Shown piece by piece: positions 1 to 16,311 of a stretch of DNA of 64,000 nt. The notes under the pieces are model-generated. The model had not been told where the DNA came from. It searched no databases and saw nothing but the letters and a program-made list of their open reading frames with translations. This DNA is from Asticcacaulis sp. SL142 (GTDB lineage: Bacteria; Pseudomonadota; Alphaproteobacteria; Caulobacterales; Caulobacteraceae), in NCBI RefSeq assembly GCF_026625745.1, contig NZ_CP113061.1:3441001-3505000 (forward strand), written 5' to 3'. Both the position numbers and the translations under genes were made by a program. Position 1 is the first letter of the stretch; the number at the start of each line of letters is the position of its first letter.

Positions 1-666
1 GAAGAAGCCAAGAACCCCGGTCGTGACCTGACCATCGGTATTCTGGGCTCAATGGGGGTTTCGACCTTTATCTACATGCTGGTGGCCGCGGTGGCGATCG
101 GTGCTGTCAACTTCAACGAAATCGCCGGATCGGGTGAGCCTTTGCCGCACGTTCTGCGCACCCTGGGCTATCCGCTGATTGCGTCTCTGGTTGGGGGTGC
201 CGCTATTGTCGCTCTGCCATCGGTTATTCTGGTGATGATGTACGGCCAAAGCCGCATCTTCTTCGTCATGGCCCGTGATGGCCTGCTGCCCAAGGCGGTG
301 GCTAAGGTCAATGCCAAGGGATCTCCGGCCCTGATCACCCTGCTGACCGGTATTTTCGTGGCCATCTTTGCGGGCTTTGTGCCGCTGAAGAAGATCGCAG
401 AACTGTCCAATGCCGGGACACTGATTGCCTTCGTGGCCGTGGCCCTGTCGATGATCATCCTGCGTAAGAAAATGCCGGACGCGCCCCGAACCTTTAAGGT
501 GCCATTCTACTGGGTGGTCGGGTTGTTCGCGATTGGCGGCTGCATATTCATCTTCTCCAGCCTGCCGGTAGAGAGCCAGTTGTTCACTCTGATCTGGATG
601 GTGATCGGTCTGGCGGTCTACTTCTCCTATGGCAAGTGGAACAGCCGTCTGCGCAAAGGTACTTAA
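1..666 (+). CDS. APC-family amino acid permease, C-terminal part (5' end outside window)
   Basis: The frame is open from base 1 and ends at TAA 664-666, so only the C-terminal ~221 residues are present. It shows about six strongly hydrophobic segments and the loop GQSRIFFVMARDGLLP, typical of transmembrane segment 8 and its following loop in APC/CAT-type amino acid transporters. It ends in a short basic tail (NSRLRKG). It would import an amino acid across the inner membrane. It sits convergent to two GntR genes and beside hydroxyproline catabolism genes, so proline or hydroxyproline uptake is a guess from context only. Family assignment is firm; substrate is unknown. Confidence 0.85.
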   Translation, partial: EEAKNPGRDLTIGILGSMGVSTFIYMLVAAVAIGAVNFNEIAGSGEPLPHVLRTLGYPLIASLVGGAAIVALPSVILVMMYGQSRIFFVMARDGLLPKAVAKVNAKGSPALITLLTGIFVAIFAGFVPLKKIAELSNAGTLIAFVAVALSMIILRKKMPDAPRTFKVPFYWVVGLFAIGGCIFIFSSLPVESQLFTLIWMVIGLAVYFSYGKWNSRLRKGT

Positions 667-693
667 GCGAACAAGGGCGTCTAAGCGAAACGT

Positions 694-722
694 AAAAGGC
701 CCCGGTTTCCGGGGCCTTTTTT
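694..722 (+). terminator. Rho-independent terminator, probably bidirectional
   Basis: A 12-bp perfect stem (AAAAGGCCCCGG / CCGGGGCCTTTT) with a TTT loop is followed by a T run. It lies between the permease stop and the convergent GntR gene, and A/T runs on both sides would let it end transcription from either direction. Confidence 0.9.
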
Positions 723-726
723 ATGA

Positions 727-1365
727 TCAGTAGTGCGCTTTGAGTTCCTCAAACGTCGCATTGATGTGGTCATAGACCAGCCTTGCCACCTCATCGCCCT
801 TACCCGACATCCAGGCGTCATACATCACCAGATGTTCCTGATGGGCGCGGTCTTCGCTGCCCGCCGCCACTAGATGCTCGCAAACATTGCGTTCTGAGAT
901 CAGGTGCAGGCGTTCGATAAAGTTGATGGTCACGGGCTTGCGCACCGGCTGGATCAGCGACAGGTGGAACAGGCGGTTGCAGCGACCGACATCACCCCGG
1001 TCGGATTCGGCGGCATGTTGCAGCCCGTTGAGGGCGGCGGTCACTGCCAGCCGGTCTTCGGGGGTGGCGCGCATGGCGGCTAAGGCTGCGGCCTGCGGTT
1101 CCATGGTCAGGCGCAGGCCATAGGCGTCTTCGGCTTCTTCGAGGGATAGCGGCGAAACAAAGAAGCCGCGATTGGCCTCCAGCACCACCAAGCCCTCGTT
1201 CTGGAGCCGGATTAGCGCTTCACGCACAGGGATCTTGCTGACCCCCAGTTCCGCCGCGATGGCCTCCTGACGTATGGCGTCATGCGGACTCAAAGTACCC
1301 GACACCAGCCGGTCGCGTAAAAGCTTATAGACCTGTTCGGAAACGGTCTGGACATGTATTCCCAT
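727..1365 (-). CDS. GntR-family regulator, FadR/FCD subfamily (first of two paralogues)
   Basis: This 212-residue protein has an N-terminal winged helix (about residues 5-70) with the recognition-helix pattern ELGVSKIPVREAL, followed by a mostly helical FCD ligand-binding domain with conserved His residues (FHLSL region). Such proteins bind short TTGT...ACAA palindromes and release DNA when a carboxylate or amino-acid-like ligand binds. A TTGT-N10-ACAA palindrome lies about 50 bp upstream of its start (1416-1439), which suggests autoregulation. It closely resembles the next gene at 1541-2197. The neighbouring pathway suggests a hydroxyproline-related ligand, which is inference. Confidence 0.9.
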   Translation of the reverse strand: MGIHVQTVSEQVYKLLRDRLVSGTLSPHDAIRQEAIAAELGVSKIPVREALIRLQNEGLVVLEANRGFFVSPLSLEEAEDAYGLRLTMEPQAAALAAMRATPEDRLAVTAALNGLQHAAESDRGDVGRCNRLFHLSLIQPVRKPVTINFIERLHLISERNVCEHLVAAGSEDRAHQEHLVMYDAWMSGKGDEVARLVYDHINATFEELKAHY

Positions 1366-1415
1366 GATAGCACCACTGAATGATTACCAGCGCTTCCGGG
1401 GGCGTGCTTCCTGAT

Positions 1416-1439
1416 GGATTGTTATATCTTATACAATCC
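1416..1439. promoter_or_regulatory. Inverted repeat, candidate GntR operator
   Basis: Perfect 7-bp arms GGATTGT and ACAATCC are separated by 10 AT-rich bases. It sits about 50 bp upstream of the first GntR gene. The TTGT/ACAA half-sites fit FCD-type GntR operators, and the reverse strand (TTGTATAAGATATAA) resembles the element at 9376-9392. Binding is inferred. Confidence 0.55.
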
Positions 1440-1540
1440 ATATATCCGAGATGTGGTGATTTTACGACGGATGACTATAAAAATGCCTACACATATTGTT
1501 TCGTTTGGATCAATAAAGACGGCAGTTCTTCTCGCTGGGA

Positions 1541-2197
1541 TCAACCGGCCTTTTCGGCCTCGAACTGCTTACGCAGATCATCAAGGGTCGAGGCAATGTG
1601 GTCATACATGACGGCGGCGACTTCATCGCCCTTACCGGCCGACCAAAGCTCCAGCATAGCGCTATGTTCCTGATGAGCACGGTCACCGCGACCGGCCGGT
1701 TCCAGGTGCTTACCCACATAACGCTCAGAAATGATATTCAGGCGTTCTACAATCTGAATGGTTACCTGACGCTTTGACGGGCGGACCAGCGACATGTGAA
1801 AGGCGCGGTTAAGTCGGCCAACCTGAGTTTTATCGGTGATCGCGGCCTGATCAAGGGCGTCGAGGGCATCGCGTGCCGCCTTGCGGTCGGCATCGGTCGC
1901 CATCTTTGAGGCCAGACCTACGGCTTCGGGTTCGATCTTGAGGCGCAGGGCGTAGACTTCATCGACTTCATCGGCATTGAGCGGGCGGACAAAAAAGCCG
2001 CGATTGGCCTGAGACAGCAGCAGGCCGTCCTGTTCCAGACGTGCCAGAGCTTCGCGCAACGGGATTTTGCTGACGCCCAGTTCCGCCGCCAAGGCGTCCT
2101 GTCGGATGGCAACATCAACCGGGAACTTACCTGAGATGATGCGGTCACGCACCAGGGAGAATATTTGCTCTGAGAGCGTCTGAACCACAATGGCCAT
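1541..2197 (-). CDS. GntR-family regulator, FadR/FCD subfamily (second paralogue)
   Basis: This 218-residue protein is a paralogue of the GntR gene just downstream. It has the same winged-helix core (ELGVSKIPLREAL) and the same FCD layout, including the AFHMSL segment and the HQEH motif near residue 175. It starts MAIVVQTLSEQ, matching the MGIHVQTVSEQ start of its partner. It lies 150 bp downstream of the hydroxyproline epimerase on the same strand, with an operator-like GTATAC element in that gap. It probably controls the hydroxyproline and arabinofuranosidase genes. Division of labour between the two regulators cannot be told from sequence. Confidence 0.9.
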   Translation of the reverse strand: MAIVVQTLSEQIFSLVRDRIISGKFPVDVAIRQDALAAELGVSKIPLREALARLEQDGLLLSQANRGFFVRPLNADEVDEVYALRLKIEPEAVGLASKMATDADRKAARDALDALDQAAITDKTQVGRLNRAFHMSLVRPSKRQVTIQIVERLNIISERYVGKHLEPAGRGDRAHQEHSAMLELWSAGKGDEVAAVMYDHIASTLDDLRKQFEAEKAG

Positions 2198-2276
2198 CTA
2201 TCAAATCCATTAAAACCGAATAATCGGCGTTCCCCTGCGGCCTTTAATTCCGTAAGAATTCCGGCACTTTTACTTA

Positions 2277-2297
2277 TAAAGTATACCAGTATTTCAT
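2277..2297. promoter_or_regulatory. GTATAC operator-like element upstream of GntR-2
   Basis: The sequence TAAAGTATACCAGTATTTC contains a GTATAC core followed after two bases by GTAT. The same GTATAC-GTAT arrangement is seen at 4484-4501 (reverse strand) and 9376-9392. It lies about 85 bp before the GntR-2 start. Confidence 0.45.
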
Positions 2298-2347: not shown

Positions 2348-3367
2348 TCAAACGACCTGAAAGCCTTGCCAGAACGGGTCTTCGCGGTCAATCCAGATGG
2401 TGTTGAAACCGGTCGAAATGGCCGAGCCTTCGATGGACGGAATAATGGCGGCCACACCGTTCAGGTCGACCTCTTCGGTCACCACGCCGGAAAAGCGGCT
2501 GGTGATATAGCTTTGATGTATAAAGGCTTCTCCGACTTTCAGCTTGCCCTTGGCGTGCAGGTGCGCCAGACGGGCCGAAGTGCCGGTGCCGCACGGTGAG
2601 CGATCAATGGCGCGCTCACCATAGAATACCGCATTGCGACCGTGGGCCGGGTTGGGTTCACCTTCGGCGTTCTTTGGCTTGTCGGCCCACAGGACATGGC
2701 TGACGCCGCGAATAGTCGAATCAAGCGGATGAACCGGCTCATAGACTTCCCGAACGAGGGTGCGGATCGTGCGCGACAGCTCGATGATTCGCGCCGCCCC
2801 CAGATCATCAAGGCCGGTATAGGGGCCGTCGGTGGTGGGCTCAATGATAGCGTAATAGTTGCCGCCGTAAGACACATCCAGCGTCAGCTGACCGAACTCC
2901 GGCACATCGATCTCGATGCCGGTCCTGGCCAGATAGGCCGGGACATTGGTGATTTTGACCGCCGTGACCTTTGGGCCTTCGGTCTTATAATCGATATTGA
3001 TGATGCCGGCGGGAACTTCGAGCTTAAGCTTGCCCGGTGTGCGCGGGGTGATCAGGCCGTTTTCGAGCGCAAAGGTCACCATGCCGATGGTGCCATGGCC
3101 GCACATGGGCAGGCAGCCGGAGGTTTCGATAAACAGGATACCGGCGTCGGTGTCTTCGCGGGTCGGCGGATACAGGAACCCGCCCGACATCATGTCGTGA
3201 CCGCGCGGTTCATAGCACAGGCCGGTTCTGATCCAGTCAAAGCGGTTCATGAAGTCCTGCCGCCGCTCGGATATATTGCTGCCCGCGAGTAGCGGCGCGC
3301 CACCCGCAACTAAGCGTACCGGATTACCGGCGGTATGACCATCGATGCAGAAGAAGGTATGACGCAT
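2348..3367 (-). CDS. 4-hydroxyproline 2-epimerase (proline racemase family)
   Basis: This 339-residue enzyme of the proline racemase fold keeps both catalytic cysteines, in MCGHGTIG (about C89) and SPCGTGTSA (about C259). Two Cys residues point to a racemase/epimerase; the related 3-hydroxyproline dehydratases have Thr in place of the second. It would convert trans-4-hydroxy-L-proline to cis-4-hydroxy-D-proline in the cytoplasm. The start MRHTFF was chosen because GAGGTG lies 5 bp upstream; an in-frame ATG 12 bp earlier overlaps that site. The DapA-like and D-amino-acid dehydrogenase genes next to it are the next two steps of the pathway. Confidence 0.88.
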   Translation of the reverse strand: MRHTFFCIDGHTAGNPVRLVAGGAPLLAGSNISERRQDFMNRFDWIRTGLCYEPRGHDMMSGGFLYPPTREDTDAGILFIETSGCLPMCGHGTIGMVTFALENGLITPRTPGKLKLEVPAGIINIDYKTEGPKVTAVKITNVPAYLARTGIEIDVPEFGQLTLDVSYGGNYYAIIEPTTDGPYTGLDDLGAARIIELSRTIRTLVREVYEPVHPLDSTIRGVSHVLWADKPKNAEGEPNPAHGRNAVFYGERAIDRSPCGTGTSARLAHLHAKGKLKVGEAFIHQSYITSRFSGVVTEEVDLNGVAAIIPSIEGSAISTGFNTIWIDREDPFWQGFQVV

Positions 3368-3504
3368 GGGGCACCTCATAAAAAAGTTTCCCGATAAGAT
3401 CGGGAATACTTTTTCATGTAAATCAATATCGACACATTCAGCCTCGGGGCGGCCCTTCGGCGGAACGAGACACTTTTACCTCCCTGGCGCGCCGGGGAGG
3501 GGGC

Positions 3505-3537: not shown

Positions 3538-4452
3538 TTAAGCGGCTTTGTGGATCGACAGCGAAGGACGCGACGCGGCGGCCTCTTCAACCATCTTGGT
3601 GACTTCGGCGCGGCGCGCACCCGTCAGCGGCAGGCGCGGCATACGCACGCGCTCAGAACCGCGGCCCATGATCTGCTCAGCCAGTTTGATCGACTGAACA
3701 AGGTCATGCTCGGCATCAAGGTGCAGCAGCGGCAGGAACCAGCGATAGATTTCAAGCGCCGTATTCAGGTCACCGGCCTTGAGCGCCTTAACCAGCAGAA
3801 CCGACTCAGCCGGGAAGGCCGAGGTCAGTCCGGACACCCAGCCCTGAGCACCCAGCAGCAGACCTTCATAGGCCACGTCATCCAGACCGGCAAAGATCGA
3901 ATAACGGTCACCGAAGGCGTTATAAACGTCGGTGAAACGGCGGGTATCGGCCGCCGATTCCTTGATGGCGACGATGTTCTTAACCGGACGCAGGGCTTCC
4001 AGTGCATCGTTGCCGATGTTTACGCGGTAGGCGGTCGGGTTGTTATAAAGCATGATCGGCAGTGAGGTCGCATTGGCGACCTGCGTGAAGTGCTCAACCA
4101 GTTCAGCGGTCTTTGGCACATAGACCATGGCCGGCAGCAGCATCAGGCCGGTGGCGCCGATCTTTTCGGCGTCCCGGGCAAAGGATACCGCCCGCGGGGT
4201 GGTCAGTTCAGAGGTGCCGACAACAACCGGTACGCGACCGGCGACGACTTCGACGATAGCGGTCAGGAGTTTACGCTTTTCGTCAGGCTCAAGAGAATTG
4301 TTTTCGCCGCAGGTGCCGAGTGCTATAATACCGGTGACGCCATCATTGATCAGGTCATCGACGACGCGCTGACTGTCAGCATAATCGATTGAAAGATCTT
4401 CATTAAATTGTGTGGTAACGGCCGGAAACACACCCTGCCAATCGATTTTCAT
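3538..4452 (-). CDS. DapA-family lyase/deaminase, probable 1-pyrroline-4-hydroxy-2-carboxylate deaminase
   Basis: This 304-residue TIM barrel of the dihydrodipicolinate synthase family has the Schiff-base lysine in VAIKESAAD (about K164), the tyrosine in LYNNPTAY (about Y136) and the GTCGENNSL loop near residue 47. In hydroxyproline pathways a DapA homologue (HypD) deaminates 1-pyrroline-4-hydroxy-2-carboxylate to alpha-ketoglutarate semialdehyde. The adjoining epimerase and divergent D-amino-acid dehydrogenase support that role; family membership alone would not. An ordinary DapA role is unlikely here. It shares an 84-bp divergent control region with the dehydrogenase gene. Confidence 0.8.
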   Translation of the reverse strand: MKIDWQGVFPAVTTQFNEDLSIDYADSQRVVDDLINDGVTGIIALGTCGENNSLEPDEKRKLLTAIVEVVAGRVPVVVGTSELTTPRAVSFARDAEKIGATGLMLLPAMVYVPKTAELVEHFTQVANATSLPIMLYNNPTAYRVNIGNDALEALRPVKNIVAIKESAADTRRFTDVYNAFGDRYSIFAGLDDVAYEGLLLGAQGWVSGLTSAFPAESVLLVKALKAGDLNTALEIYRWFLPLLHLDAEHDLVQSIKLAEQIMGRGSERVRMPRLPLTGARRAEVTKMVEEAAASRPSLSIHKAA

Positions 4453-4483: not shown

Positions 4484-4501
4484 ATATACCGTATACTATA
4501 T
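4484..4501. promoter_or_regulatory. GTATAC operator-like palindrome in divergent promoter region
   Basis: ATATACCGTATACTATAT lies between the start codons of the DapA-like gene and the D-amino-acid dehydrogenase. Read on the minus strand it is TAGTATACGGTAT, giving the GTATAC-N-GTAT pattern of 9376-9392. Its position would let one regulator control both transcription units. Confidence 0.5.
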
Positions 4502-4536: not shown

Positions 4537-5763
4537 ATGAAGGCGATTGTGGTCGGCGGTGGCTTGGTGGGTTTGAACATCGCTCTGGCGCTCCAGAGTA
4601 AAAATATCGGCGTTATCTTGCTTGAAGCTGAGCCGGTGCGCAAGGCGGCGTCTTATGGCAATGCCGGACATATTGCGATCGAACAGGTCGAACCTTTGGC
4701 GTCGGCCGCCATGGTTAAATCGGCGTTTAAGCGCTGGTTCGCTTTGGGCGGGCCATTATCGTTTCCGGCGGCGGGTTTTAGGGAATGGCTGCCGTTTTCG
4801 CTGCGACTGCTAAGGGCGTCGGCACCGGCCCGATTCGCAAAGGGTAAGGCTGCGTTATCTGCTCTGATCGCTGAGGCCATGCCGGCCTGGAAACGCAGGG
4901 TGTCAGACATAGGTGCGACTGACCTGCTGCGCGAAGATGGACACTTTGTTATATGGGAAACGCCGGAGAGTGCGGCCAAAGGGCTGGCGGGCTGGAAGGC
5001 CACCGACACCGGCACGGCGCGCTTTCATGAGGTGACCAATGATGAAATGGCGCAGTTAAAGGCCATCACCAAAGCGCCGATCGCAGGCGCGATTCGCTTT
5101 GAAAACACCGGGCAGGTCAGTGACACCGCCCGTCTTCTGAAAACGCTGGAAGCGGTGTTTGTCGAACGGGGCGGGGTGATCTACTATAAATCCGTGGCCG
5201 CTCTTAGCGTCGAAGGCAGGCAGGCTTTTGTAAAACTTAAAGGCGGAGAGATACTGACCGCAGATCGCGTTGTCATCAGTGCGGGCGTGGGATCAAAGAC
5301 CCTGCTTGAACCATTAGGGCACCGCGTCCCCATCATTGCCGAGCGCGGTTATCACATTCAGACGGCGCAGCATGGCTGGCCGCAAAGCTTGCCGCCGGTG
5401 GTGTTTGAAGACCGCTCGATGATCGTGACGGGCTTTGAAAGCGGGCTGCGCGCGGCTAGCTTTGTGGAGCTTAACCGGCCGGATGCCCCCGCTGATGCGC
5501 GCAAGTGGCAACGGCTGCGCGGCCATGTCAAGGCGCTGGGCCTGCCGTTTGAGGGTGAGGGGGCTGAATGGATCGGGTCGCGACCGACCTTGCCGGATTA
5601 TTTGCCAGCTATCGGCAAAAGCGATAAGGCCGATAATCTTTATTATGCTTTCGGCCATCAGCATCTGGGCCTGACGCTGGGGCCAGTGACCGGTGAGATC
5701 GTGGCCGATATGGTCACGACCGGCCATGCGCCCAAGGCCTTTGATTTGAATAGATTTGCGTAA
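4537..5763 (+). CDS. FAD-dependent D-amino-acid dehydrogenase/oxidase, probable D-hydroxyproline dehydrogenase
   Basis: This 408-residue DAO-family flavoprotein has an N-terminal dinucleotide-binding motif VVGGGLVGLN followed by an acidic strand end (LLEAEP). A C-terminal FAD-contacting segment includes GHQHLGLTLGP. It resembles DadA-like enzymes that oxidise D-amino acids and pass electrons to the respiratory chain. In this context the substrate is probably cis-4-hydroxy-D-proline, giving 1-pyrroline-4-hydroxy-2-carboxylate for the DapA-like enzyme. It is transcribed divergently from that gene and lies 10 bp before the M24 peptidase, probably in one operon. The final semialdehyde dehydrogenase of the pathway is not in this window. 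Confidence 0.82.
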   Translation: MKAIVVGGGLVGLNIALALQSKNIGVILLEAEPVRKAASYGNAGHIAIEQVEPLASAAMVKSAFKRWFALGGPLSFPAAGFREWLPFSLRLLRASAPARFAKGKAALSALIAEAMPAWKRRVSDIGATDLLREDGHFVIWETPESAAKGLAGWKATDTGTARFHEVTNDEMAQLKAITKAPIAGAIRFENTGQVSDTARLLKTLEAVFVERGGVIYYKSVAALSVEGRQAFVKLKGGEILTADRVVISAGVGSKTLLEPLGHRVPIIAERGYHIQTAQHGWPQSLPPVVFEDRSMIVTGFESGLRAASFVELNRPDAPADARKWQRLRGHVKALGLPFEGEGAEWIGSRPTLPDYLPAIGKSDKADNLYYAFGHQHLGLTLGPVTGEIVADMVTTGHAPKAFDLNRFA

Positions 5764-5773: not shown

Positions 5774-6952
5774 ATGATTGGTGGATCGACGATTGAGGCC
5801 GAACTGGCCAAGCTTCAGCCTCCGGTGGCCGCAGAGGCTATTTCGGCGGCGGGATATCAGGCGCGGCTGGATAAGGCCCGCAAACTGACCCGTGACATGG
5901 GCGCCAAGGCGTTGCTGGTTGGGGCGGGAGCATCTTTGCGTTATTTCGCAGGCGTGCCGTGGGGCGCGTCGGAGCGGTTGGTGGCCATGCTGCTGCCCGT
6001 AGATGGCGAGCCGGTCATTATCTGCCCGTTTTTTGAGCGCGGGTCGTTAGAGGCCGATCTCAAAATTCCGGCGGAACTACGTTTGTGGCAGGAGGACGAA
6101 AGCCCCCATGCTTTGATCAAGCAGGCCATGTCCGACTGGGGCGGCGGGGTCATCGCCGTTGATCCGGCCCTGTCGTTTGAAATGGTTAGCCGCCTGATGC
6201 GCGAAACCGGTCTGGCGATTCAGGAAGCTTCATCGGTCATTAATGGCTGCCGGATGTATAAATCGTCCGCCGAACTGGCTCTGATGCAGCAGGCGAAATC
6301 CATGACCGAGATCGTGCACAAGGCGACGGCGCGAATCCTGCGCGACGGTATCACGACCACAGAGGTGATCAATTTCATCGAGGCCGCTCACCGCAAGATG
6401 GGGGCGGCGGGCAATTCGTTCGTCATTGTGCAGTTCGGCCACGCCACCGCCTATCCGCACGGCCTACCGGGTGTGCAGACCCTGGCTGAGAATGATCTGG
6501 TTCTGATTGATACCGGTTGCTACGTGCAGGGCTACACCTCCGACATCACCCGCACCTATATTTATGGGCAGGCCACACCAGAGCAGCAGCGCATCTGGGA
6601 CATCGAAAAGGAGGCCCAAGCGGCGGCATTTGCGGCGGTTGAGGTCGGTAAGCCGTGCGAAAGCGTCGATTATGCCGCCCGCGCGATCTTAGAGAAGCAC
6701 GGTCTGGGGCCGGACTATAACCTGCCCGGCACGCCGCACCGCACGGGTCATGGCATCGGGCTGGCCATCCATGAGCCGGCCTATCTGGTGCGCGGGGATA
6801 AGACGCTTTTGGCCCCCGGCATGTGCTTTTCCAATGAGCCGATGATCGTGGTGCCGGAACGCTTTGGCATCCGGCTGGAAGACCACATGTACGTCGCTGA
6901 ATCTGGTGCCAAGTGGTTCACCGAACCGCAGGGCGCGATCGATCGATTGTAG
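5774..6952 (+). CDS. M24-family metallopeptidase (Xaa-Pro dipeptidase-like)
   Basis: This 392-residue protein has an N-terminal creatinase-type domain (to about residue 165) and a C-terminal pita-bread domain. All five metal ligands expected in M24 are visible: D246 and D257 (IDTG, TSDITRTY), H326 (TGHGIG), E355 (SNEP) and E369 (RLEDH). No signal peptide is seen, so it acts in the cytoplasm. In an operon with D-hydroxyproline dehydrogenase it most plausibly splits X-Pro or X-Hyp dipeptides, feeding the pathway. The related ectoine hydrolase role cannot be excluded, but no ectoine genes are nearby. Confidence 0.85.
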   Translation: MIGGSTIEAELAKLQPPVAAEAISAAGYQARLDKARKLTRDMGAKALLVGAGASLRYFAGVPWGASERLVAMLLPVDGEPVIICPFFERGSLEADLKIPAELRLWQEDESPHALIKQAMSDWGGGVIAVDPALSFEMVSRLMRETGLAIQEASSVINGCRMYKSSAELALMQQAKSMTEIVHKATARILRDGITTTEVINFIEAAHRKMGAAGNSFVIVQFGHATAYPHGLPGVQTLAENDLVLIDTGCYVQGYTSDITRTYIYGQATPEQQRIWDIEKEAQAAAFAAVEVGKPCESVDYAARAILEKHGLGPDYNLPGTPHRTGHGIGLAIHEPAYLVRGDKTLLAPGMCFSNEPMIVVPERFGIRLEDHMYVAESGAKWFTEPQGAIDRL

Positions 6953-6958
6953 AACGGG

Positions 6959-6986
6959 TACTCACGGTGTATATACATCGTGAGTA
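6959..6986. promoter_or_regulatory. 28-bp near-perfect palindrome, toxin-antitoxin operator
   Basis: Arms TACTCACGGTGTAT and ATACATCGTGAGTA form a 28-bp dyad with a single mismatched pair. It starts 7 bp after the peptidase stop and ends 18 bp before the antitoxin start, with GGAGG-type binding sequence after it. The centre (TGTATATACA) could be the -10 region. It is the expected kind of site for RHH-antitoxin autoregulation. Confidence 0.7.
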
Positions 6987-7004
6987 TGGTTCGCGGAGGT
7001 CGCC

Positions 7005-7573: not shown

Positions 7574-7576
7574 ATA

Positions 7577-9331
7577 TTAGTCCTTACCTTCATAGGGGCT
7601 GGTGCCGCCACGGGCGATGAACTTATCGATGGCCGAATCCAGCACCGGCAAGGGCACGGAGCCCAGTTCCAGCACCGTGTCGTGGAAGGCGCGGATGTCG
7701 AACTTTTCACCGAGCGCAGCTTCGGCCTTGGCGCGGGCTTTCCAGATCGCCATTTCACCCAGATAGTAACTCAGCGCCTGACCGGGCCAGGCGATATAGC
7801 GGTCGGTTTCGGTGGTGATTTCGTGCTCAGACAGGGCGGTATTATCACGCATGAAGGCCATGGTCTGATCGCGGATCCAGCCCTTGGCGTGGATGCCGGT
7901 ATCAACCACCAGACGGGCAGCGCGCCACATCTGATAGCTTAACATGCCAAAGTGCTCATACGGTGTGTGATACATGCCCATTTCAACGCCTAAGCGCTCA
8001 GAGTACAGCGCCCAGCCTTCGCCGTAAGCCGAGATATAGGTATTCTGACGGAATTCCGGCAGGCCCTTGTTTTCCATGGCGAGTGGCATCTGGAAGGCAT
8101 GGCCCGGCGCCGATTCATGCAAGGTCAGGGCCGGCAGCGAATAGAGCGGACGCGCGGGCAGGTTATAGGTATTGACCCAGTAACCGCCGGGGCCGCCGCG
8201 ACCGCCAGTGTAGAACGGGGCCAGTTCCGGGGCGACGGGGAAGATGCCGAACCTCATGCGTGGCTGACGGCCGAAATATTTGCCGGAGACGGCATCAAAT
8301 TCCTTGGCGGTCCAGGCGGCGCGGTCGAGCAGATCCTGGGGCTTCGTCACATAAAACTGCGGATCGGTGCGCAGGAAGTGCAAAAACGCGGGCAGGTCGC
8401 CCTCAAACTTGACCTCTTTCATGACGGTGAGCATTTCAGCCTTGATCTTGGCGACTTCATCAAGGCCGATCTGGTGGATTTGCTCCGGCGTCAGGTCTAG
8501 CGTGGTGTATTCGCGGCTTTGGGCGGCATAGAACGCCTTGCCGTCGGGCAGGTCGTAGGCCCCGATTTTGGTCGTGGCCTTGGGCTCATATTCCTTGGTG
8601 ATAAAGGTCAGAACCGACTGGTGGGCGGGGATGACGCTTTTGGCGATGGCCTCAAGCGCCAGCTTTTTCAGTTCCGCCTGTTTGTCGGCAGGTATTGAGG
8701 CGGGCATGGATTTGAAGGGTTTGTAGAATGAGTTATTCTCGCCCTTGGCATCAATCACGGTGGTCAGGGACACATCGCGTCCGGCCAGAGACACCTTCGG
8801 TACGGTAAAGCCACGCTTCATACCTGTGCGCATATTGTCCATGTTCTGGCCGAAATAGCGCGGCATGTCATTCAACTGGCGCAGATAATTGCGGTAGTCG
8901 GCCTCGGTGCGGTAGGTGCCGCCCGTGATGTAGCTGAGGTCGCTCCAGAACGAGGTATCACCCGCCAGTGGACGCTCATAGGTCTTGAACTTTTGGGCGT
9001 TATAGAGCGTTTCGATCTGAAAACGGTAAATCTGATAATCGACAGCCGCGGCTTCCGACAGTTTTGATTTATCGATGCCGTCCAGTTGTTTCAGCACGTT
9101 CTGCCAGTAGACCAGCTTCTTATCTTGTGCGGCCTTTGAGACATCAGGCAAGCCACCGCCGCGCTGATCGGCGGGGATGTCTTCGCTGACCGACATTTGC
9201 TCGCCGCGCCATTTCCATTCGGTGGTATAGATGTCTTTGAACTGAGAGTCTGTGGCGGGGTCAGCAAAAGAGGTCATGGCGCTCAGGGATAAAACGGCGG
9301 CAACAGCGGTGGCGGCGAACAGGGACTTCAT
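7577..9331 (-). CDS. Secreted DUF885-family metallopeptidase-like protein
   Basis: This 584-residue protein has a Sec signal peptide (MKSLFAATAVAAVLSLSA...SFA, cleavage near residue 23). The DUF885 motif HESAPGH (near residue 430) is followed by a Glu-rich EGWALYSE motif, together resembling a zinc-peptidase active site. Such proteins act in the periplasm or outside the cell and are presumed peptidases. It is divergent from the GH127-GH43-GH127 operon, sharing a control region with a GTATAC element. That placement fits peptide-backbone cleavage of a glycoprotein whose sugars are removed by the GH enzymes, which is inference. Confidence 0.85.
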   Translation of the reverse strand: MKSLFAATAVAAVLSLSAMTSFADPATDSQFKDIYTTEWKWRGEQMSVSEDIPADQRGGGLPDVSKAAQDKKLVYWQNVLKQLDGIDKSKLSEAAAVDYQIYRFQIETLYNAQKFKTYERPLAGDTSFWSDLSYITGGTYRTEADYRNYLRQLNDMPRYFGQNMDNMRTGMKRGFTVPKVSLAGRDVSLTTVIDAKGENNSFYKPFKSMPASIPADKQAELKKLALEAIAKSVIPAHQSVLTFITKEYEPKATTKIGAYDLPDGKAFYAAQSREYTTLDLTPEQIHQIGLDEVAKIKAEMLTVMKEVKFEGDLPAFLHFLRTDPQFYVTKPQDLLDRAAWTAKEFDAVSGKYFGRQPRMRFGIFPVAPELAPFYTGGRGGPGGYWVNTYNLPARPLYSLPALTLHESAPGHAFQMPLAMENKGLPEFRQNTYISAYGEGWALYSERLGVEMGMYHTPYEHFGMLSYQMWRAARLVVDTGIHAKGWIRDQTMAFMRDNTALSEHEITTETDRYIAWPGQALSYYLGEMAIWKARAKAEAALGEKFDIRAFHDTVLELGSVPLPVLDSAIDKFIARGGTSPYEGKD

Positions 9332-9375: not shown

Positions 9376-9392
9376 ATTGTATACAGTATAAT
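9376..9392. promoter_or_regulatory. GTATAC operator-like element in divergent DUF885/GH127 region
   Basis: ATTGTATACAGTATAAT lies between the divergent DUF885 and GH127 starts. It contains TTGTATAC and a following GTAT, as at 4484-4501 and 2277-2297. A TTGACA box at 9370 is only 11 bp from TATAAT, too close for a standard plus-strand promoter, so the element more likely binds a regulator over promoter elements on one or both strands. Confidence 0.5.
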
Positions 9393-9439: not shown

Positions 9440-11851
9440 ATGTCCCGACCCGCCCTTATCACCAACCGCCGCGCCCTTCTAGGAGGGGTGGCTGCCACCA
9501 CGCTCATCAGTGGCCTGAGCCTGCCGGTCATGGCCGCCACAGGGGTGCCGCTGAAGGCTGAACCCGTGCCGATGAAGGATGTGCGCCTTCTGCCATCGCC
9601 GTTCCTGAACGCGGTTGAGGTCAACACCAAGTATCTGATGGTACTTGAGCCTGACCGCCTGCTGCATAACTACCATAAGTTTGCAGGCCTGCCGGTCAAG
9701 GGCGAAATCTATGGCGGATGGGAATCGGACACGATTGCCGGGGAAGCTTTGGGCCACTATCTTTCGGCCTTGTCGCTGATGTACGCCCAAACCGGCAATG
9801 CCGAATGCATCACCCGCATCAACTATATCATTTCTGAGCTGAAAAAAGTTCAGGCAGCGCATGGCGATGGCTATGTGGCGGGCTTTATGCGTAAGCGCAA
9901 AGACGGCACGGTCGTCGATGGCAAAGAAATTTTCCCCGAAATCATGGCCGGCGATATCCGCTCGGCCGGGTTTGACCTCAACGGCTGCTGGGTGCCGTTA
10001 TATAACTGGCATAAGCTTTATGCGGGGCTGATGGATGTACAGGCCCTAACCGGAAACGATGCGGGTATTCCGATCCTGCTGGGTTTGAGCGGCTATATCG
10101 AGAAGGTATTTGCCGCCCTGAATGATGAGCAGGTTCAAAAGGTTCTGGCCTGTGAATATGGTGGTCTCAACGAATCGTTTGCCGAGCTTTATGTCCGTAC
10201 CAAGGATCCGCGCTGGCTGGTGCTGGCCGAGCGCATCTATGACAACCGCGTCCTTGATCCGCTGAAAGCCGGTGAGGACAAACTGGCCAATTTCCACGCC
10301 AATACTCAGGTGCCAAAACTGGTCGGGTTGGCGCGGCTTTATGAAATCACCGGTAAGCCGGAATACCAAAAGGCCTCAAGCTTCTTCTGGGAGCGGGTGG
10401 TCAACCACCATTCGTTTGCTATTGGTGGTAATGCCGACCGTGAGTATTTCTTCGAGCCAGATACCATTTCGGCCCACATCACCGAGCAGACCTGCGAAAG
10501 CTGTAACACCTATAATATGATGAAGCTGACGCGCCATCTCTATAGCTGGTCGCCGCAGGCGTCATACTTTGACTACTATGAGCGGGCGCACCTGAACCAC
10601 ATTCTGGCGCACCAGCACCCTGAAACCGGCATGTTCACCTATATGATGCCGCTGATGTCGGGCATGGCGCGGGAATATTCAACACCGTTTGATTCGTTCT
10701 GGTGCTGCGTGCTGTCGGGGATCGAAAGCCATTCCAAGCATGGCGATTCCATCTATTGGGAAAGCGGCGATACGCTGTTTGTGAACCTGTTTATCCCGTC
10801 AACCCTGAACTGGGCGGCGAAAAAAGCTGAGTTCGAGCTTCTGACCAAATATCCCTATGAGGGCAATATCGCGCTAAAGCTTAAGCGCGTGCAGGGGGCG
10901 AAAGCCTTCACCGTGGCGTTACGGATTCCGGCCTGGGCGAAATCCAACACCCTGCTGGTCAACGGCAAACCGGCTCTGGCCAGGATGGATAAGGGCTATG
11001 CCCTGATCACGCGCACATGGCGCTCCGGCGATGTGGTCACGCTGGATCTGCCGCTTGATCTGCGCTTTGAGGCCACGGCGGGCAACGATAAGGTCGTGGC
11101 GTTGCTGCGCGGGCCGATGGTTATGGCCGCCGATCTGGGGCCAGCGCCTAACAAGGACGAAGATCCGGAATATAAGGGCGACGCCCCCGCTCTGGTGGGT
11201 GCGGATCTGCTGGCTGGTATTGTGCCGGTATCGGCAACCGAGGCGGTCTATAAAACCAATGGTATTGGCCGTCCGGGCGACCTGACGTTCAAGCCGTTCT
11301 ACGCCCAGTATGAACGCCGCAACGCCGTCTATTTCAACCGCTATAACGATGCTGAATGGGCGACGGCTCAGGTCGCCTTCCGCGAAGAGCAGGCCCGTCT
11401 TAAGGAACTGGCGGCGCGGTCGGTCGATGTCATGTATCTGGGCGAAATGCAGCCCGAACGGGATCATAATCTGACGACCGGCGGCACCTCCTATCCGGTC
11501 GTCTACCGTGGACGTAAGGGCCGTGATGCCCGCACCATGGGCTTCTTCCAGTTTGATATGAAGGTATCTAAGGACGGTAAAGATGCCGGCCCGCTGGTGC
11601 TGCAGGCGACCTATTGGGGCTCAGAGTTCAACCGCAGCTTCACGATCGAGATCGATGGCACCGTCATTGCCCATGAACGCCTGTCGGGCCGTCAACCGGG
11701 CGACTGGATCGATGTCAGCTATCCGATCCCGCACAACCTGACCAAGGGCAAACAAAAGGTCACGGTCAAGTTCAACCCGCAGGAAGGCAAGACCGCTGGC
11801 CCTGTGTTCGGCGTGCGTTTGTTCACCACGGCAGCGGCCAAAGCGGTTTAA
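9440..11851 (+). CDS. Beta-L-arabinofuranosidase-like glycoside hydrolase, GH127/GH146 clan (DUF1680), Tat-exported
   Basis: This 803-residue enzyme starts MSRPALITNRRALLGG, a twin-arginine signal, so it is exported folded; an in-frame TTG 45 bp upstream would give no signal-like start. The DUF1680 barrel begins near residue 45 (VRLLPSPFLNA, then DPDRLL-like EPDRLLHNY), most like the GH146 branch. The zinc/active-site set is present: E353-S-C355 and the C422-C423 pair. In GH127 the cysteine of this pair is the nucleophile and a zinc is held by E-x-C plus C-C. A beta-sandwich C-terminus follows. It should release beta-L-arabinofuranose from plant glycans or Hyp-linked oligosaccharides. It heads a three-gene operon. 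Confidence 0.88.
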   Translation: MSRPALITNRRALLGGVAATTLISGLSLPVMAATGVPLKAEPVPMKDVRLLPSPFLNAVEVNTKYLMVLEPDRLLHNYHKFAGLPVKGEIYGGWESDTIAGEALGHYLSALSLMYAQTGNAECITRINYIISELKKVQAAHGDGYVAGFMRKRKDGTVVDGKEIFPEIMAGDIRSAGFDLNGCWVPLYNWHKLYAGLMDVQALTGNDAGIPILLGLSGYIEKVFAALNDEQVQKVLACEYGGLNESFAELYVRTKDPRWLVLAERIYDNRVLDPLKAGEDKLANFHANTQVPKLVGLARLYEITGKPEYQKASSFFWERVVNHHSFAIGGNADREYFFEPDTISAHITEQTCESCNTYNMMKLTRHLYSWSPQASYFDYYERAHLNHILAHQHPETGMFTYMMPLMSGMAREYSTPFDSFWCCVLSGIESHSKHGDSIYWESGDTLFVNLFIPSTLNWAAKKAEFELLTKYPYEGNIALKLKRVQGAKAFTVALRIPAWAKSNTLLVNGKPALARMDKGYALITRTWRSGDVVTLDLPLDLRFEATAGNDKVVALLRGPMVMAADLGPAPNKDEDPEYKGDAPALVGADLLAGIVPVSATEAVYKTNGIGRPGDLTFKPFYAQYERRNAVYFNRYNDAEWATAQVAFREEQARLKELAARSVDVMYLGEMQPERDHNLTTGGTSYPVVYRGRKGRDARTMGFFQFDMKVSKDGKDAGPLVLQATYWGSEFNRSFTIEIDGTVIAHERLSGRQPGDWIDVSYPIPHNLTKGKQKVTVKFNPQEGKTAGPVFGVRLFTTAAAKAV

Positions 11852-11861: not shown

Positions 11862-13211
11862 ATGAAACGTCTCGCGGCTTTAAGCCTTTTGCCGCTGCTG
11901 GCGGCATGTGCGCCAACCTTAGCTCAAACGGCGCTGGAAACCCGTCAGGTCACGGCCCCTTATAACCCGATCTTAGCCGACGGCGTAGACTATACGACCG
12001 ATCCGGCCCCGCTGGTTGTGGGTGATAAGCTTTATATCCTGACCGGCCGCGACGTGGCCGAACCGGGCGTCAACGACTTCATCATGCCGGAATGGCAGAT
12101 GCTGGAAACCTCTGACCCAAAGTCTGGCCAGTGGACCCACTATCCGTATTTCCTCAAGCCCAATGATGTCTTCAAATGGGCGACACCGGGCCGTGCCTAT
12201 GGCGCCCAGATCGTCCAGGGGCCGGACAAGAGGTTCTATCTCTACGCGCCGGTGATGCAGCAGGGATCGGCTAACAAAGACGGCTTTGCCATTGGCGTCG
12301 CCGTCTCCGACAGCCCGACCGGGCCGTGGGTCGATGCCCATCCGTCAGGGCCGGTCATTTCGCAGTCCTATCCGGTCGCCAATGACATTCAGAACATCGA
12401 TCCGACCATCCTTATTGACGACGATCAGCGCGTCTACCTCTATTGGGGCACGTTTGGCCGCCTGAAAGGCGTCGAACTCGAAAAAGACATGGTGACCTTT
12501 AAGGGTAAGCCGGTCGATGTGAACACCCTGACCGGTTTCTTTGAGGCCCCGTGGATTTTCAAGCGCAAGGGCACCTATTACATGGCCTATGCCGGCAATA
12601 AGGCCGGGCCGGATTCCGAATGTACCGAAGCGGTTTACTATGCCTGTATCGCTTATGGCTCCGCCAAATCACCGCTGGGGCCGTGGACCTACCGCGGCGT
12701 GATGCTTGACCCGGTATCGTCGACCACCTCGCATTCGGGTATCGCGCACTATAAGGGTGAGTGGTACATCGCCTATCACACGGCTGATGGCAAAAATGGC
12801 GGCCATTTCCGCCGCGCCGTAGCGCTCGATAAGTTCACTTGGGACGATACCGTTTCACCGCCCGCAATTGAAAAGGTTGTGCAAACCAAGGCCCCGCCGC
12901 CTGCGCCGACACCGACCCGCAACTTAGCCCCCGCCGCCCGTATTGTCGCCTCAAACTCACCCGTGCCGGTGCAATACTGGATCAGGGCGCTCAATGACGG
13001 CAAGGTGCGCGAAGCGCCGCTGCCGCCCGATACCTGGGGCACCTGGTCGCCGAATAACCCCAAGCAGCAATGGGTGGTTTATCAATGGGAACAGCCGCTG
13101 AAGTTTAACGGTTCGCGTCTCTATTTCTGGGGCGATCAGCCCGCCGGTTCCGGCATTGGCGTGGCCCCGCCCAACGGCCTGGCATCTGGAATACTGGTCG
13201 GATGCCGATAA
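11862..13211 (+). CDS. GH43-family arabinofuranosidase-like lipoprotein (C-terminal domain cut by frameshift)
   Basis: As read this is 449 residues. It begins with a lipoprotein signal (MKRLAALSLLPLLAAC) and then a five-bladed GH43 propeller. Expected catalytic residues are visible: D47 (YTTDPAP), D180 (NIDPTILID) and E228 (FFEAPWIF). From about residue 355 a discoidin-like sugar-binding domain starts (APAARIVASN) but stops early at 13211. The +1 frame continues the domain to 13449; removing one C at 13178/13179 joins PPNG to WHLEYWSD. The catalytic domain is complete, so activity may survive. GH43 beside GH127 recalls the Bifidobacterium longum extensin-glycan enzymes. It lies 10 bp after the first GH127 gene. 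Confidence 0.85.
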   Translation: MKRLAALSLLPLLAACAPTLAQTALETRQVTAPYNPILADGVDYTTDPAPLVVGDKLYILTGRDVAEPGVNDFIMPEWQMLETSDPKSGQWTHYPYFLKPNDVFKWATPGRAYGAQIVQGPDKRFYLYAPVMQQGSANKDGFAIGVAVSDSPTGPWVDAHPSGPVISQSYPVANDIQNIDPTILIDDDQRVYLYWGTFGRLKGVELEKDMVTFKGKPVDVNTLTGFFEAPWIFKRKGTYYMAYAGNKAGPDSECTEAVYYACIAYGSAKSPLGPWTYRGVMLDPVSSTTSHSGIAHYKGEWYIAYHTADGKNGGHFRRAVALDKFTWDDTVSPPAIEKVVQTKAPPPAPTPTRNLAPAARIVASNSPVPVQYWIRALNDGKVREAPLPPDTWGTWSPNNPKQQWVVYQWEQPLKFNGSRLYFWGDQPAGSGIGVAPPNGLASGILVGCR

Positions 13212-13449
13212 AAAATGGACGCCGATCAGCGCCCAATACCCGACCGCGACTCTCAATACTTTTAACGAAGTGGCGTTTGAGACCGTGACCACGCGCTGTC
13301 TGCGGGCGGTGTTTGATGCCTCGACCGACGGTAAAACCTATGCTGCCGTCGCGGCTCAGGAATGGGAAGCCCTGTACCCCAAGCCGGTGCTGGTCGAAGC
13401 CGCTGACACCAAGCTTTCGGCCTCCGCCACCTGCGTCCCGTCCGAATAA
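13180..13449 (+). pseudogene. Out-of-frame C-terminal remainder of the GH43 lipoprotein
   Basis: This frame reads WHLEYWSDADKKWTPISAQY and ends at TAA 13447-13449. It continues a discoidin/F5-8C-type domain with the pattern of the N-terminal domain in the next gene (spouse phrases such as VQYDWGQP, CRVLYWNGK, TFDEVTTDKLRLEI). It has no own ribosome binding site or sensible start. One surplus C in the run GGCC at 13176-13179 explains the break; a sequencing error and a true mutation look the same here. Confidence 0.75.
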
Positions 13450-13473
13450 TTCTGTTAAATAAAGACCCATATC

Positions 13474-16311
13474 ATGACCCGCAAATTTACCGCCGAGATC
13501 AACCCTCATCTGTGCCAGCCCGATTGTCGCTGCCTTGACCGGCGCGGATTTCTGGCGGGCGCTGCGGGGGCGTCTGTGGTCGGCGGGTTAGGGCTTGGTG
13601 CCTCATTTGCCTTTGCTGACACGACCGTGGTTAATCTGGCCAAGGTGGCGACCCCATCGACCTCGTTCATGTCGGGTGACGGCAAGCTGACCGCGCTCAA
13701 TGATGGGGTTGAGCCTAAAAACTCCTCTGATAATGCCGCCACCTCTTATGGCAACTGGCCCAAGACCGGCACGGAATGGGTGCAGTATGACTGGGGCCAG
13801 CCGATCACCACCAACAAAGTCGATGTCTACTGGTGGATCGACGGGCAGGGCGTGGGCGCGCCGAAATCGTGCCGCGTGCTGTACTGGAACGGCAAGGCTT
13901 TCGTGCCGGTGCCAAAAGCCAAGGGGCTGGGCGTCAAGGCCAATGGCTACAACACCACCACCTTTGATGAGGTCACAACCGACAAACTGCGGCTTGAGAT
14001 CGTCTCGGACGGTAAGCTGTCGACCGGCGTTCTGGAATGGAAGGTCTATAGCTTTGGCGTCGTGCCGGCGTTTGCGCCGGTCGTGGTCGCCGGTGTTGAC
14101 CGCACTGTCATCATGGGCGGCAAGACCTATCTGATGGGTAAGGCCGACTGGCTCAATCCGGGGGCCGACACCGGCAGCCTGTGGCGTAAGGTCTCCGGCC
14201 CCGGTCAGGTCAGCTTTGCCGATGCTCTGTCGGCGGATACAACGGCGACGTTCTCGGAAACCGGCGACTATGTGCTGGAACTGGCCGCCCATTCGGGTCA
14301 GCGGGTTAGCACCTCACGCCTGCGGGTGCGCGCTCAGGCCGCCCCGCCGAAGGAACGCCTTGATGTGGTCTATACCCGCCGCTATAGCCTCGACAGTCCG
14401 CTGTGGAACGCGCGTGCCAAGTCTTTGATCGTCAACTGGATTCCGCACTGCATCAACTATTGTGAGCGCACCGATCTGCCGACGGGCCAAGGCGGTATCG
14501 ACAACTTTATTGAGGCCGCCAAGGCCAATCGCGGCGAACCGCATGGCCCGCATAAGGGCCTTGTGTTCTCAAACGCGTGGGTGCTGCAAACGGTTGAGGC
14601 CATCTGCATTGCCCTGATGGTTGACCCGCAAGGCGATGCCGACATGATGAAGGCGCAAGCCCACATGAAGGCGACGCTGGAGCGCTGGATACCGCCGATT
14701 CTGGCTGCGCAGGAATCGGACGGTTACCTGCAAACCGCCAAGACACTGGCGGCACCGGGCGCGTGGGATAAGCGCTGGGACCCTGCCCACCGCGCCGACC
14801 ACGAAGGCTATATCGCGGGCTACTTCATCGAATCGGCCATCAATCACTACACCCTGACCAATGGTCAGGACGTGCGGCTTTATAACGGTGCCAAGAAACT
14901 GGCCGACTGCTGGGTCGCCAATGTCGGCCCCGGCAAGATCGAATGGTTTGATGGCCATCAGGAGATGGAGCAGGCGCTGGTGCGCTTTGGCCGTTTCGTC
15001 AACGATATGGAAGGCGGCGGCAATGGCGATGCCTATATTGCTCTGGCGCGTTTCCTGCTCGAATCCCGCCAGGGGGGGCATGAATATGACCAGAGCCACC
15101 TGCCGCCCGAAAAGCAGTACGAAGCCGTCGGTCACGCCGTCCGCGCCGTCTATTCCTATTCGGCTATGGCCGATATTGCCGCCGAAACCGGCGATGTCGA
15201 GTACCAAAGTGCGGTCATGTCGTTGTGGGACAATATCGTCAACCGCAAATACTATGTTACCGGCGGCATAGGCTCAGGCGAAACCGCCGAAGGCTTTGGT
15301 GCGGACTATTCGTTGCGCAACAATGCCTACTGCGAATCCTGTTCGTCGGCGGGGGAAATCTTCTTCCAGTATAAGCTCAACCTGGCCTATCACGACGCCA
15401 AGTACGCTGATCTGTATGAGCAGACCATGTATAATGCCCTGCTGGGTGGTACGGATTTGAACGGCACCAGCTTTGGTTACACCAATCCGCTGATCAACAG
15501 TGAGCGCACCCTGTGGCACGTCTGTCCGTGCTGTGTCGGCAATATCCCGCGCACGCTGTTGATGGTGCCGACCTGGACCTACGTCAAGGATAAGGCCGGT
15601 ATCTATGTGAACATGTTCGTCGGCTCAAAGATCGTAGTCGATCGCGTCGCAGGCACCGATGTTGAGATGGTGCAAAAGACCGATTATCCGTGGAACGGGG
15701 CTGTCTCGATCACCGTCAACCCTAAAGAAACCAAGACCTTTACCGTCTATGTCCGCATCCCGAACCGCAAGACCAGCGATCTTTACACCTTAACGCCCGC
15801 GGTGAGCGGTGTGAAATCGTTCAAGGTCAATGGTAAGGCCGTTACGCCGACCATCGAAAAAGGCTATGCCGTTGTCACGCGCGAATGGAAAGCCGGTGAC
15901 CGCATTGAGCTTGAGCTGCCACTGGCACCGCAGCGCATCCATGCCGATGAACGTATCGAGGCGGATCGTGGCCGGGTGGCGCTGGGCTTTGGCCCGCTGG
16001 TTTACAATGTCGAAAAAGCCGATCAACCTAATATCGAGCAGGTGTTGAGCGGTGCGCCGATCAAGGCTGAGTGGCGTGGCGACCTGCTGGGCGGGGTCAT
16101 GGCCCTGACCGGTAAATGGCAGGACGGTTCACCCATGCTGGCCATCCCGAACTATGCACGCATGAACCGCGTCGGTGAAGTGGCGGCCATCGGCAGCGGC
16201 GATGTCGACTTTGCGCCCGGTGCGACCACACCGGCGGCTCAGGCGCCGGTCGGCCCACGGGTGCGGGTGACGGGCCTGCAATCTCAGGTCTGGATTCGCG
16301 ACAAGGTATGA
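13474..16311 (+). CDS. GH127-family beta-L-arabinofuranosidase (DUF1680) with N-terminal discoidin-like and Ig-like domains, Tat-exported
   Basis: This 945-residue protein starts with a long twin-arginine signal (LDRRGFLAGAAGAS). A discoidin-like domain follows (about 50-195), then an Ig/PKD-like domain (about 205-290), then the DUF1680 catalytic domain, which is closer to HypBA1-type GH127 than the first enzyme. The active-site set is intact: E621-S-C623 and C684-P-C686-C687. It would hydrolyse beta-L-arabinofuranosyl linkages such as those on extensin hydroxyproline. The accessory domains probably hold it to cell-wall polysaccharide. It lies 24 bp after the GH43 frame and closes the operon before a terminator. 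Confidence 0.88.
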   Translation: MTRKFTAEINPHLCQPDCRCLDRRGFLAGAAGASVVGGLGLGASFAFADTTVVNLAKVATPSTSFMSGDGKLTALNDGVEPKNSSDNAATSYGNWPKTGTEWVQYDWGQPITTNKVDVYWWIDGQGVGAPKSCRVLYWNGKAFVPVPKAKGLGVKANGYNTTTFDEVTTDKLRLEIVSDGKLSTGVLEWKVYSFGVVPAFAPVVVAGVDRTVIMGGKTYLMGKADWLNPGADTGSLWRKVSGPGQVSFADALSADTTATFSETGDYVLELAAHSGQRVSTSRLRVRAQAAPPKERLDVVYTRRYSLDSPLWNARAKSLIVNWIPHCINYCERTDLPTGQGGIDNFIEAAKANRGEPHGPHKGLVFSNAWVLQTVEAICIALMVDPQGDADMMKAQAHMKATLERWIPPILAAQESDGYLQTAKTLAAPGAWDKRWDPAHRADHEGYIAGYFIESAINHYTLTNGQDVRLYNGAKKLADCWVANVGPGKIEWFDGHQEMEQALVRFGRFVNDMEGGGNGDAYIALARFLLESRQGGHEYDQSHLPPEKQYEAVGHAVRAVYSYSAMADIAAETGDVEYQSAVMSLWDNIVNRKYYVTGGIGSGETAEGFGADYSLRNNAYCESCSSAGEIFFQYKLNLAYHDAKYADLYEQTMYNALLGGTDLNGTSFGYTNPLINSERTLWHVCPCCVGNIPRTLLMVPTWTYVKDKAGIYVNMFVGSKIVVDRVAGTDVEMVQKTDYPWNGAVSITVNPKETKTFTVYVRIPNRKTSDLYTLTPAVSGVKSFKVNGKAVTPTIEKGYAVVTREWKAGDRIELELPLAPQRIHADERIEADRGRVALGFGPLVYNVEKADQPNIEQVLSGAPIKAEWRGDLLGGVMALTGKWQDGSPMLAIPNYARMNRVGEVAAIGSGDVDFAPGATTPAAQAPVGPRVRVTGLQSQVWIRDKV

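Follow-up and report, generated by a model that had tools for sequence, protein, structure and literature searches.

A probable regulon for the use of plant hydroxyproline-rich glycoproteins in Asticcacaulis and related bacteria

A 64,000-nucleotide stretch of the genome of Asticcacaulis sp. SL142 (the window; G000:C1:3441001-3505000, on the single 3.71 Mb contig C1 of this genome, G000) carries an island in which glycosidases of the GH127 and GH146 families adjoin genes of hydroxyproline (Hyp) catabolism. The gene content of the island, its conserved linkage and the operator sequence common to its promoters are observed directly; the regulator, inducer, enzyme specificities and substrate are inferred. 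The island is probably the centre of a regulon that lets the bacterium feed on plant hydroxyproline-rich glycoproteins, namely arabinogalactan proteins and/or extensins. These are major proteins of plant walls and exudates, and there are few descriptions of how bacteria use their sugars together with their amino acids. Co-regulation of the locus is well supported by its sequence, and the system looks like a plant-directed variant of the HypR-type regulon, the nearest known thing.

Conservation of the pairing

The original prediction had joined the two gene sets in one island and had proposed, beforehand, to treat the neighbourhood as chance if they were not co-inherited in relatives and responded to different substrates; the pairing survived the test of co-inheritance. 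Of 249 genomes sampled evenly across the order, with epimerases counted above the curated cut-off, 37 carry a 4-hydroxyproline epimerase, 23 a GH127-family gene and 10 both (Fisher p 0.0005, relatedness ignored). The two genes lie within 13 kb of each other in seven of these ten genomes (G000, G089, G114, G136, G146, G183 and G196), against about 1.3% per genome expected by random placement, relatedness again being ignored. A scan of named genomes with a GH146 profile, from which the best 80 of 591 loci were kept, found the island repeated in named Sphingomonadales, Caulobacterales, Azospirillaceae and Acetobacter. Of these best 80 loci, 23 include an epimerase homologue (3 of the 23 are distant, 31-54%). 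Among the genomes of the first 50 loci, 32 have a curated epimerase; in 22 of the 32, it and the detected GH146 are no more than about 14 kb apart.

The recurrent block comprises DUF5695, GH146, an Ldh2-type reductase, DUF885, GH43 and a TonB receptor, followed by DapA, epimerase, GntR, permease, a DAO-family oxidase and M24, the full set being seldom together. On the GH146 tree, the Hyp-linked state requires 13 changes, versus 27.6 in shuffles, none of 500 shuffles being as low. Asticcacaulis endophyticus, in which 11 island proteins have counterparts 85-99% identical (L127), has an additional GH146 copy that is Hyp-linked. The pairing of GH127/GH146 with Hyp catabolism is conserved and not due to chance; Hyp catabolism mostly occurs without GH127, but GH146 in these lineages tends to adjoin Hyp genes.

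A shared palindrome as putative operator

GTATAC palindromes were first noticed at several promoters of the Asticcacaulis genome when its intergenic regions were read; the operator consensus is ATATCGTATACGATAT, and AATATCGTATACGATATA in relatives. The core was counted within 300 bases upstream of gene starts inferred from homology, in 37 deduplicated islands (L034, L056 and L074 were removed beforehand as duplicates of L124-L126). These include the G000 island, the near-identical A. endophyticus copy and some loci in which DapA but no epimerase could be seen; the majority came from a profile built on Hyp-linked GH146, so the set is biased towards linkage. The core stands upstream of GH146 in 30 of the 37 islands, upstream of DapA, epimerase or DAO in 31, and at both in 28. 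Mononucleotide shuffles give 0.045 cores per GH146 window, and the next-best palindromic hexamer reaches 14/37 GH146 windows and 14/36 DapA windows. The core is also present in 10 of the 51 GH146 loci that show no Hyp gene, and in 7 of 11 Hyp loci lacking GH146. Its presence in Hyp operons that lack GH146 suggests that the operator belonged ancestrally to Hyp genes and that glycosidases were recruited to it.

Three plasmid records that had no part in the finding of the operator agree with it. In 37 kb of that of Sphingomonas parapaucimobilis the core has two copies, one preceding DapA by 32 bases and the other lying between a GH127-family gene and DUF5695. Three of four cores on the Novosphingobium RL4 plasmid lie at GH146, a TonB receptor and DapA, and two of three on the Sphingomonas R1 plasmid lie between DAO and GntR and between DapA and a TonB receptor.

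In the Asticcacaulis genome, the pattern WTNGTATACNRTAW, written after the first three sites had been seen, occurs exactly at six places (7 strand hits versus 0.7 expected under a first-order model). The sites known beforehand are 5' of GH97, between DapA and DAO, and between DUF885 and GH146. The new ones lie between GH2 and DUF885 genes, 39 bases before the start of a POT peptide transporter, and at a gene that looks MarR-like by eye and is followed on its strand by GH35. Sites with one mismatch, part of which were inspected, include those between GH146b and a TonB receptor, between TrpHal and a small protein-S9 peptidase unit, and at GntR1, DUF885-S9, another TonB receptor and a candidate for the last enzyme of Hyp catabolism. 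A second cluster (L139, G000:C1:1890000-1909000) has three operator-like sites and contains an S9 peptidase (two overlapping frames, one of which was scanned), two DUF885 genes, GH2, a TonB receptor and cupin-8.

The shared palindrome is the strongest evidence for the predicted common control, and it lends sequence support to the single regulon for sugar and Hyp that had been proposed. On a rival view, the two catabolic sets are independent and lie together by chance or through a general clustering of plant-polymer genes; this would fit with the many Hyp operons devoid of GH127 and with the unlinked three of ten order genomes. The linked seven of ten, the core at both promoters in 28/37 islands and the recurrence of the pairing in Lacibacter (see below), with DAO one base after GH146, speak against this; a chance neighbourhood was rejected on linkage and shared operator, and the explanation is very improbable.

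Gene content of the island

Reading, Pfam and NCBIfam located all genes named in the original prediction where it had placed them (Table 1). The island runs through GH97, DUF5695, APC permease, GntR1, GntR2, epimerase, DapA-like, DAO, M24, DUF885, GH146, GH43 and GH127. Its proposed span, 1..16311, holds the genes named, but the island begins before the window with GH97 and DUF5695 and ends at recA (named by eye). The GH43 lipoprotein is present with its whole catalytic part (residues 45-329), but the frame is broken and the C-terminal part goes on in another frame. The region 11862-13473 holds either a frame break after the catalytic domain or a sequencing error; the GH43 of several relatives has ~520-530 amino acids. 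The secreted DUF885 protein is likewise there, but it is a peptidase by presumption, its solved relatives carrying no named function. Between M24 and DUF885 (6953-7576), two small frames resemble, by eye, a CopG/ParE-type toxin-antitoxin pair.

Table 1. Features of the island (positions in the window, unless given on contig C1)
Feature	Position	Strand	Evidence and remarks
GH97	G000:C1:3435088-3437100		before window; first gene of island
DUF5695 protein	G000:C1:3437341-3440112		before window
APC amino-acid permease, 3' part	1..666	+	Pfam AA_permease_2 E 1e-50; whole gene G000:C1:3440260-3441666, start outside window
GntR1, GntR/FCD regulator	727..1365	-	Pfam; 54% identity to GntR2 (BLASTP)
Operator-like site 5' of GntR1, 1 mismatch	1424..1437	.	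pattern scan
GntR2, GntR/FCD candidate regulator	1541..2197	-	Pfam; ~50-60% identical homologues in many islands
GTATAC core, weak site, 5' of GntR2	2281..2286	.	reading of intergenic regions
4-hydroxyproline epimerase	2348..3379	-	NCBIfam NF010578, 519 bits (cut-off 376)
DHDPS/DapA-family enzyme, putative 1-pyrroline-4-hydroxy-2-carboxylate deaminase	3538..4452	-	Pfam PF00701; adjoins epimerase in relatives
Operator between divergent DapA-like and DAO genes, 0 mismatches	4486..4499	.	pattern scan
FAD oxidase (DAO family), putative D-hydroxyproline dehydrogenase	4537..5763	+	Pfam PF01266
M24 peptidase, Xaa-Pro-dipeptidase-like	5774..6952	+	Pfam PF00557; under NCBIfam cut-offs
Secreted DUF885 protein, putative peptidase	7577..9331	-	Pfam PF05960, 521 bits
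Operator between divergent DUF885 and GH146 genes, 0 mismatches	9376..9389	.	pattern scan
GH146-type beta-L-arabinofuranosidase candidate	9440..11851	+	PF07944 412 bits; 5opj E 1e-139
GH43 lipoprotein, lipobox by eye	11862..13211	+	PF04616 E 1e-32; catalytic domain intact, C-terminal part in another frame
GH127 with F5/8-C-like N-terminal part	13474..16311	+	PF07944 202 bits; 6ex6 E 5e-95, 4qjy E 7e-85

Glycosidases and candidate substrates

Both window proteins match PF07944 above cut-off. In the alignment of the GH146 with 5opj, its nearest solved relative, E353, C355, C422 and C423 are matched, and the Glu and Cys of the GH127 align with 6ex6, its nearest solved chain. A Zn-binding Cys3-Glu site is a feature of GH127/GH146, clan GH-P (PMC10850190). 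Beta-L-arabinofuranosidase action on Hyp-linked arabinose is a candidate function for the two enzymes. The genome has four GH127-family genes in all: one of the others lies ~28 kb upstream, adjoining a TonB receptor, a tryptophan-halogenase-family gene and an S9 peptidase, and the fourth 107 kb off, beside a gene labelled GH51-like from its sequence, without a profile scan.

The GH97 is closest to the retaining alpha-galactosidase type (3a24 and 5e1q, E 2e-103 and 2e-102, versus 5e-72 or weaker for others), its KIDFMDR aligning with KVDFMDR, in which an Asp would be the nucleophile. With GH27, alpha-galactosidase candidates in the islands come from two families. DUF5695, found in 28 of 99 stretches, has a PL27-like fold, with an N-terminal beta-sandwich and an (alpha/alpha)6 barrel. 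It differs from the PL27 L-rhamnose-alpha-1,4-D-glucuronate lyases by an extra C-terminal beta domain, and sequence searches gave no match between the two. PL27 lyases uncap gum arabic. DUF6055 proteins lie beside GH146 in some loci (L046:2026-3879, L005:4267-6159).

The original prediction had named extensin specifically as the substrate. GH43 and GH146/GH127 would then take off Hyp-linked arabinosides and an alpha-galactosidase the serine-linked galactose, after which Hyp would be burned. The alpha-galactosidase candidates of the islands fit this scheme, as do the successive action of GH43, GH121 and GH127 on Ara4-Hyp in Xanthomonas (PMC6085000) and a GH146 cited as the last enzyme for hydroxyproline-rich glycoprotein oligoarabinosides (a reference title in PMC10850190). 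DUF5695, with its PL27-like fold, and the GH2 (less surely GH35) galactosidase behind operator sites argue against it; DUF5695 and GH2 fit arabinogalactan proteins no less well. We know of no job on extensin for PL27-like DUF5695, GH2 or GH35. Extensin alone appears too narrow, since DUF5695 folds like the lyases that uncap gum arabic, and a restriction to it is unlikely.

Less likely still, the glycosidases would serve for pectic arabinan or rhamnogalacturonan-II, Hyp being read merely as a signal of plant wall. The molecule names of 5opj, which include a rhamnogalacturonan lyase and a glycosyl hydrolase, the closeness of 6ex6 to the GH127, and a separate GH146 clade tied to GH51-like and arabinose-type genes point this way. 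In that clade, with a GH51-like neighbour in 7 of 12 rows, none of the 12 GH146 is Hyp-linked, and peptidase and peptide-transporter genes stand behind operator sites, both of which speak against a pectic role. In Asticcacaulis and Sphingomonas, a GH51-like gene often accompanies the GH146 of this clade (e.g. L007:5854-9808), in some loci together with arabinose-type genes; no Hyp genes were seen in the loci of this clade.

Hydroxyproline and arabinose catabolism

The epimerase passes the curated NF010578 cut-off, and the DAO and DapA-like enzymes are assigned at family level only. The last step, ketoglutarate semialdehyde (KGSA) dehydrogenase, had been placed outside the window; a family-wide scan of the genome for aldehyde dehydrogenases (ALDHs) gave a candidate at G000:C1:2706670-2708037 with an operator-like site upstream. 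Two ALDHs of L123 were rejected for this role, scoring best as SSADH and PuuC types. Arabinose catabolism, also placed outside the window, has candidate genes: at about 1.3576-1.3627 Mb, an AraD1/GguC gene exceeds its cut-off (520 bits, cut-off 340), but the accompanying IlvD/EDD-family dehydratase falls under that of the L-arabinonate dehydratase model (541 bits, cut-off 882). The island of Sphingomonas sp. Leaf412 (L049) also contains IlvD/EDD-family, AraD1/GguC, aldose-epimerase and GH27-cluster genes. A trans-3-hydroxy-L-proline dehydratase (L018:5850-6887) and, among Sphingomonas islands, an Ldh2-family reductase seen in several suggest that trans-3-Hyp may be used as well.

Occurrence in other phyla

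One locus each was found in Bacteroidota and Acidobacteriota. Lacibacter luteus (Bacteroidota) has, on the same strand, DapA, an ALDH-like gene (by clustering), a BNR protein, an epimerase (572 bits), GH127, GH146 and a DAO-family gene starting one base after GH146. In the Granulicella paludicola locus (Acidobacteriota), the epimerase belongs to a different subfamily (411 bits, cut-off 442) and is joined by DapA, ALDH, GH127, GH146, DUF885, GH43 and, by eye, two FAD-oxidase-like genes and a permease-like gene. The GH146 of this locus is placed among those of Sphingomonas on the GH146 tree, whereas the epimerase and DapA share just 35-43% identity with those of the window, which suggests that this set was assembled separately. 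A second Granulicella locus (L063) has no Hyp gene in view.

Proposed scheme

In the regulon proposed here, secreted GH43, GH146, GH127, the GH97 alpha-galactosidase candidate, the PL27-fold DUF5695 and unlinked galactosidases would strip arabinose and galactose, and perhaps also rhamnose-glucuronate caps, from the glycan. The bared backbone would be cleaved by DUF885 and S9 peptidases, TonB receptors, the POT transporter and the APC permease would import peptides and amino acids, and M24 would release Hyp. Epimerase, DAO oxidase, DapA-type deaminase and KGSA dehydrogenase would then convert Hyp to 2-oxoglutarate. A GntR/FCD repressor, probably GntR2, would couple these steps via the ATATCGTATACGATAT operator and would probably be released by Hyp or an intermediate. 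The scheme predicts one switch for sugar and amino-acid use with Hyp, the hallmark residue of these plant proteins, as the likely signal, gives candidate roles to DUF5695, DUF885 and the peptide transporter, and would explain why the gene block recurs in Sphingomonas, Novosphingobium, Caulobacter and Asticcacaulis.

Several observations weigh against it. By count alone the 18 kb G000 island is weak evidence for an operator (4 GTATAC versus 1.0 expected, p 0.02); with one mismatch the background is high (46 hits in all versus 34 in the reversed control), some such sites lying inside unrelated genes (L142, L144, L145). A relatedness-corrected test of operator versus linkage had the same direction but was underpowered (9 pairs, median p 0.25). 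The operator is at neither Lacibacter promoter, and in Granulicella the core is 5' of GH146 only. Epimerase and GH127-family genes are unlinked in G066, G091 and G132, and no linkage was shown for the GH146 found in the remaining 10 of the 32 named genomes with a curated epimerase. In a class sample of 385 genomes, 62 have the epimerase, nine a GH127-family gene and four both, linked in two; 58 of the 62 epimerase genomes have no GH127 match, so the coupling is a lineage feature and no rule. The KGSA dehydrogenase candidate comes nearest to ketoglutarate-semialdehyde models but stays under cut-off (NF042993 best, 500 bits, cut-off 770), and the ALDH of the relatives' islands was rejected for this role, being absent from the G000 genome (best match 33% over half). 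The chain 6ex6, nearest to the GH127, is an aceric acid hydrolase.

Comparison with known systems

The Bifidobacterium/Xanthomonas HypBA1-HypBA2-HypAA set resembles the island in directing GH43 and GH127/GH146 at Hyp-linked arabinose (PMC6085000, PMC10850190). It includes GH121, which the likeness does not cover. In the excerpts cited the sugar is taken and Hyp catabolism is not described as coupled, whereas the island is predicted to couple the two. GH127 has been linked to extensin in Latescibacteria (PMC4454575), and the main text of a genome-neighbourhood study of such enzymes is without 'glycos', 'arabin' or 'extensin' (PMC4113996). The linkage had been presented as not seen described: no paper uniting GH127/GH146 or extensin with Hyp catabolism was found in searches of the open-licence PMC literature, where one paper names DUF5695, but HypR regulons already couple Hyp to collagenases.

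The Sinorhizobium meliloti hyp locus (pSymB), recognised by homology, has an epimerase 57%, a DAO 33% and a DapA 31% identical to those of the window, a GntR 31% identical to GntR1 over 154 amino acids, and 53% identity to the ALDH of a relative's island; its 25 kb stretch holds no homologue of the window glycosidases or DUF5695. An S. medicae GntR match was rejected as a HypR orthologue, no hyp genes being found around it.

In Alteromonadales, GntR-family HypR regulons join Hyp catabolism to secreted collagenases, proline (di)peptidases, a di/tripeptide permease and TonB transporters (PMC5343134); collagenases belong to the regulon in Shewanella and in Streptomyces, that of S. coelicolor including a putative one (PMC6608401). 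The likeness lies in the association of a GntR-family regulator with Hyp catabolism, since GntR/FCD genes lie next to those for Hyp both in the window and in many of its relatives. The macromolecular source differs: collagen, with no glycoside hydrolases named in the excerpts, versus plant-glycan enzymes as the upstream part of the system here. The S. coelicolor motif CTNTGC(A/C)ATGTCAC is unlike ATATCGTATACGATAT. We give even chances to a broader reading, in which the island is the plant-side counterpart of the collagen HypR regulon, having arisen more than once (Alphaproteobacteria, Bacteroidota, Acidobacteriota), with DUF5695 as a new family of arabinogalactan protein lyases or hydrolases; the sensing of Hyp would then simultaneously turn on the stripping of glycans, the uptake of peptides and the burning of Hyp.

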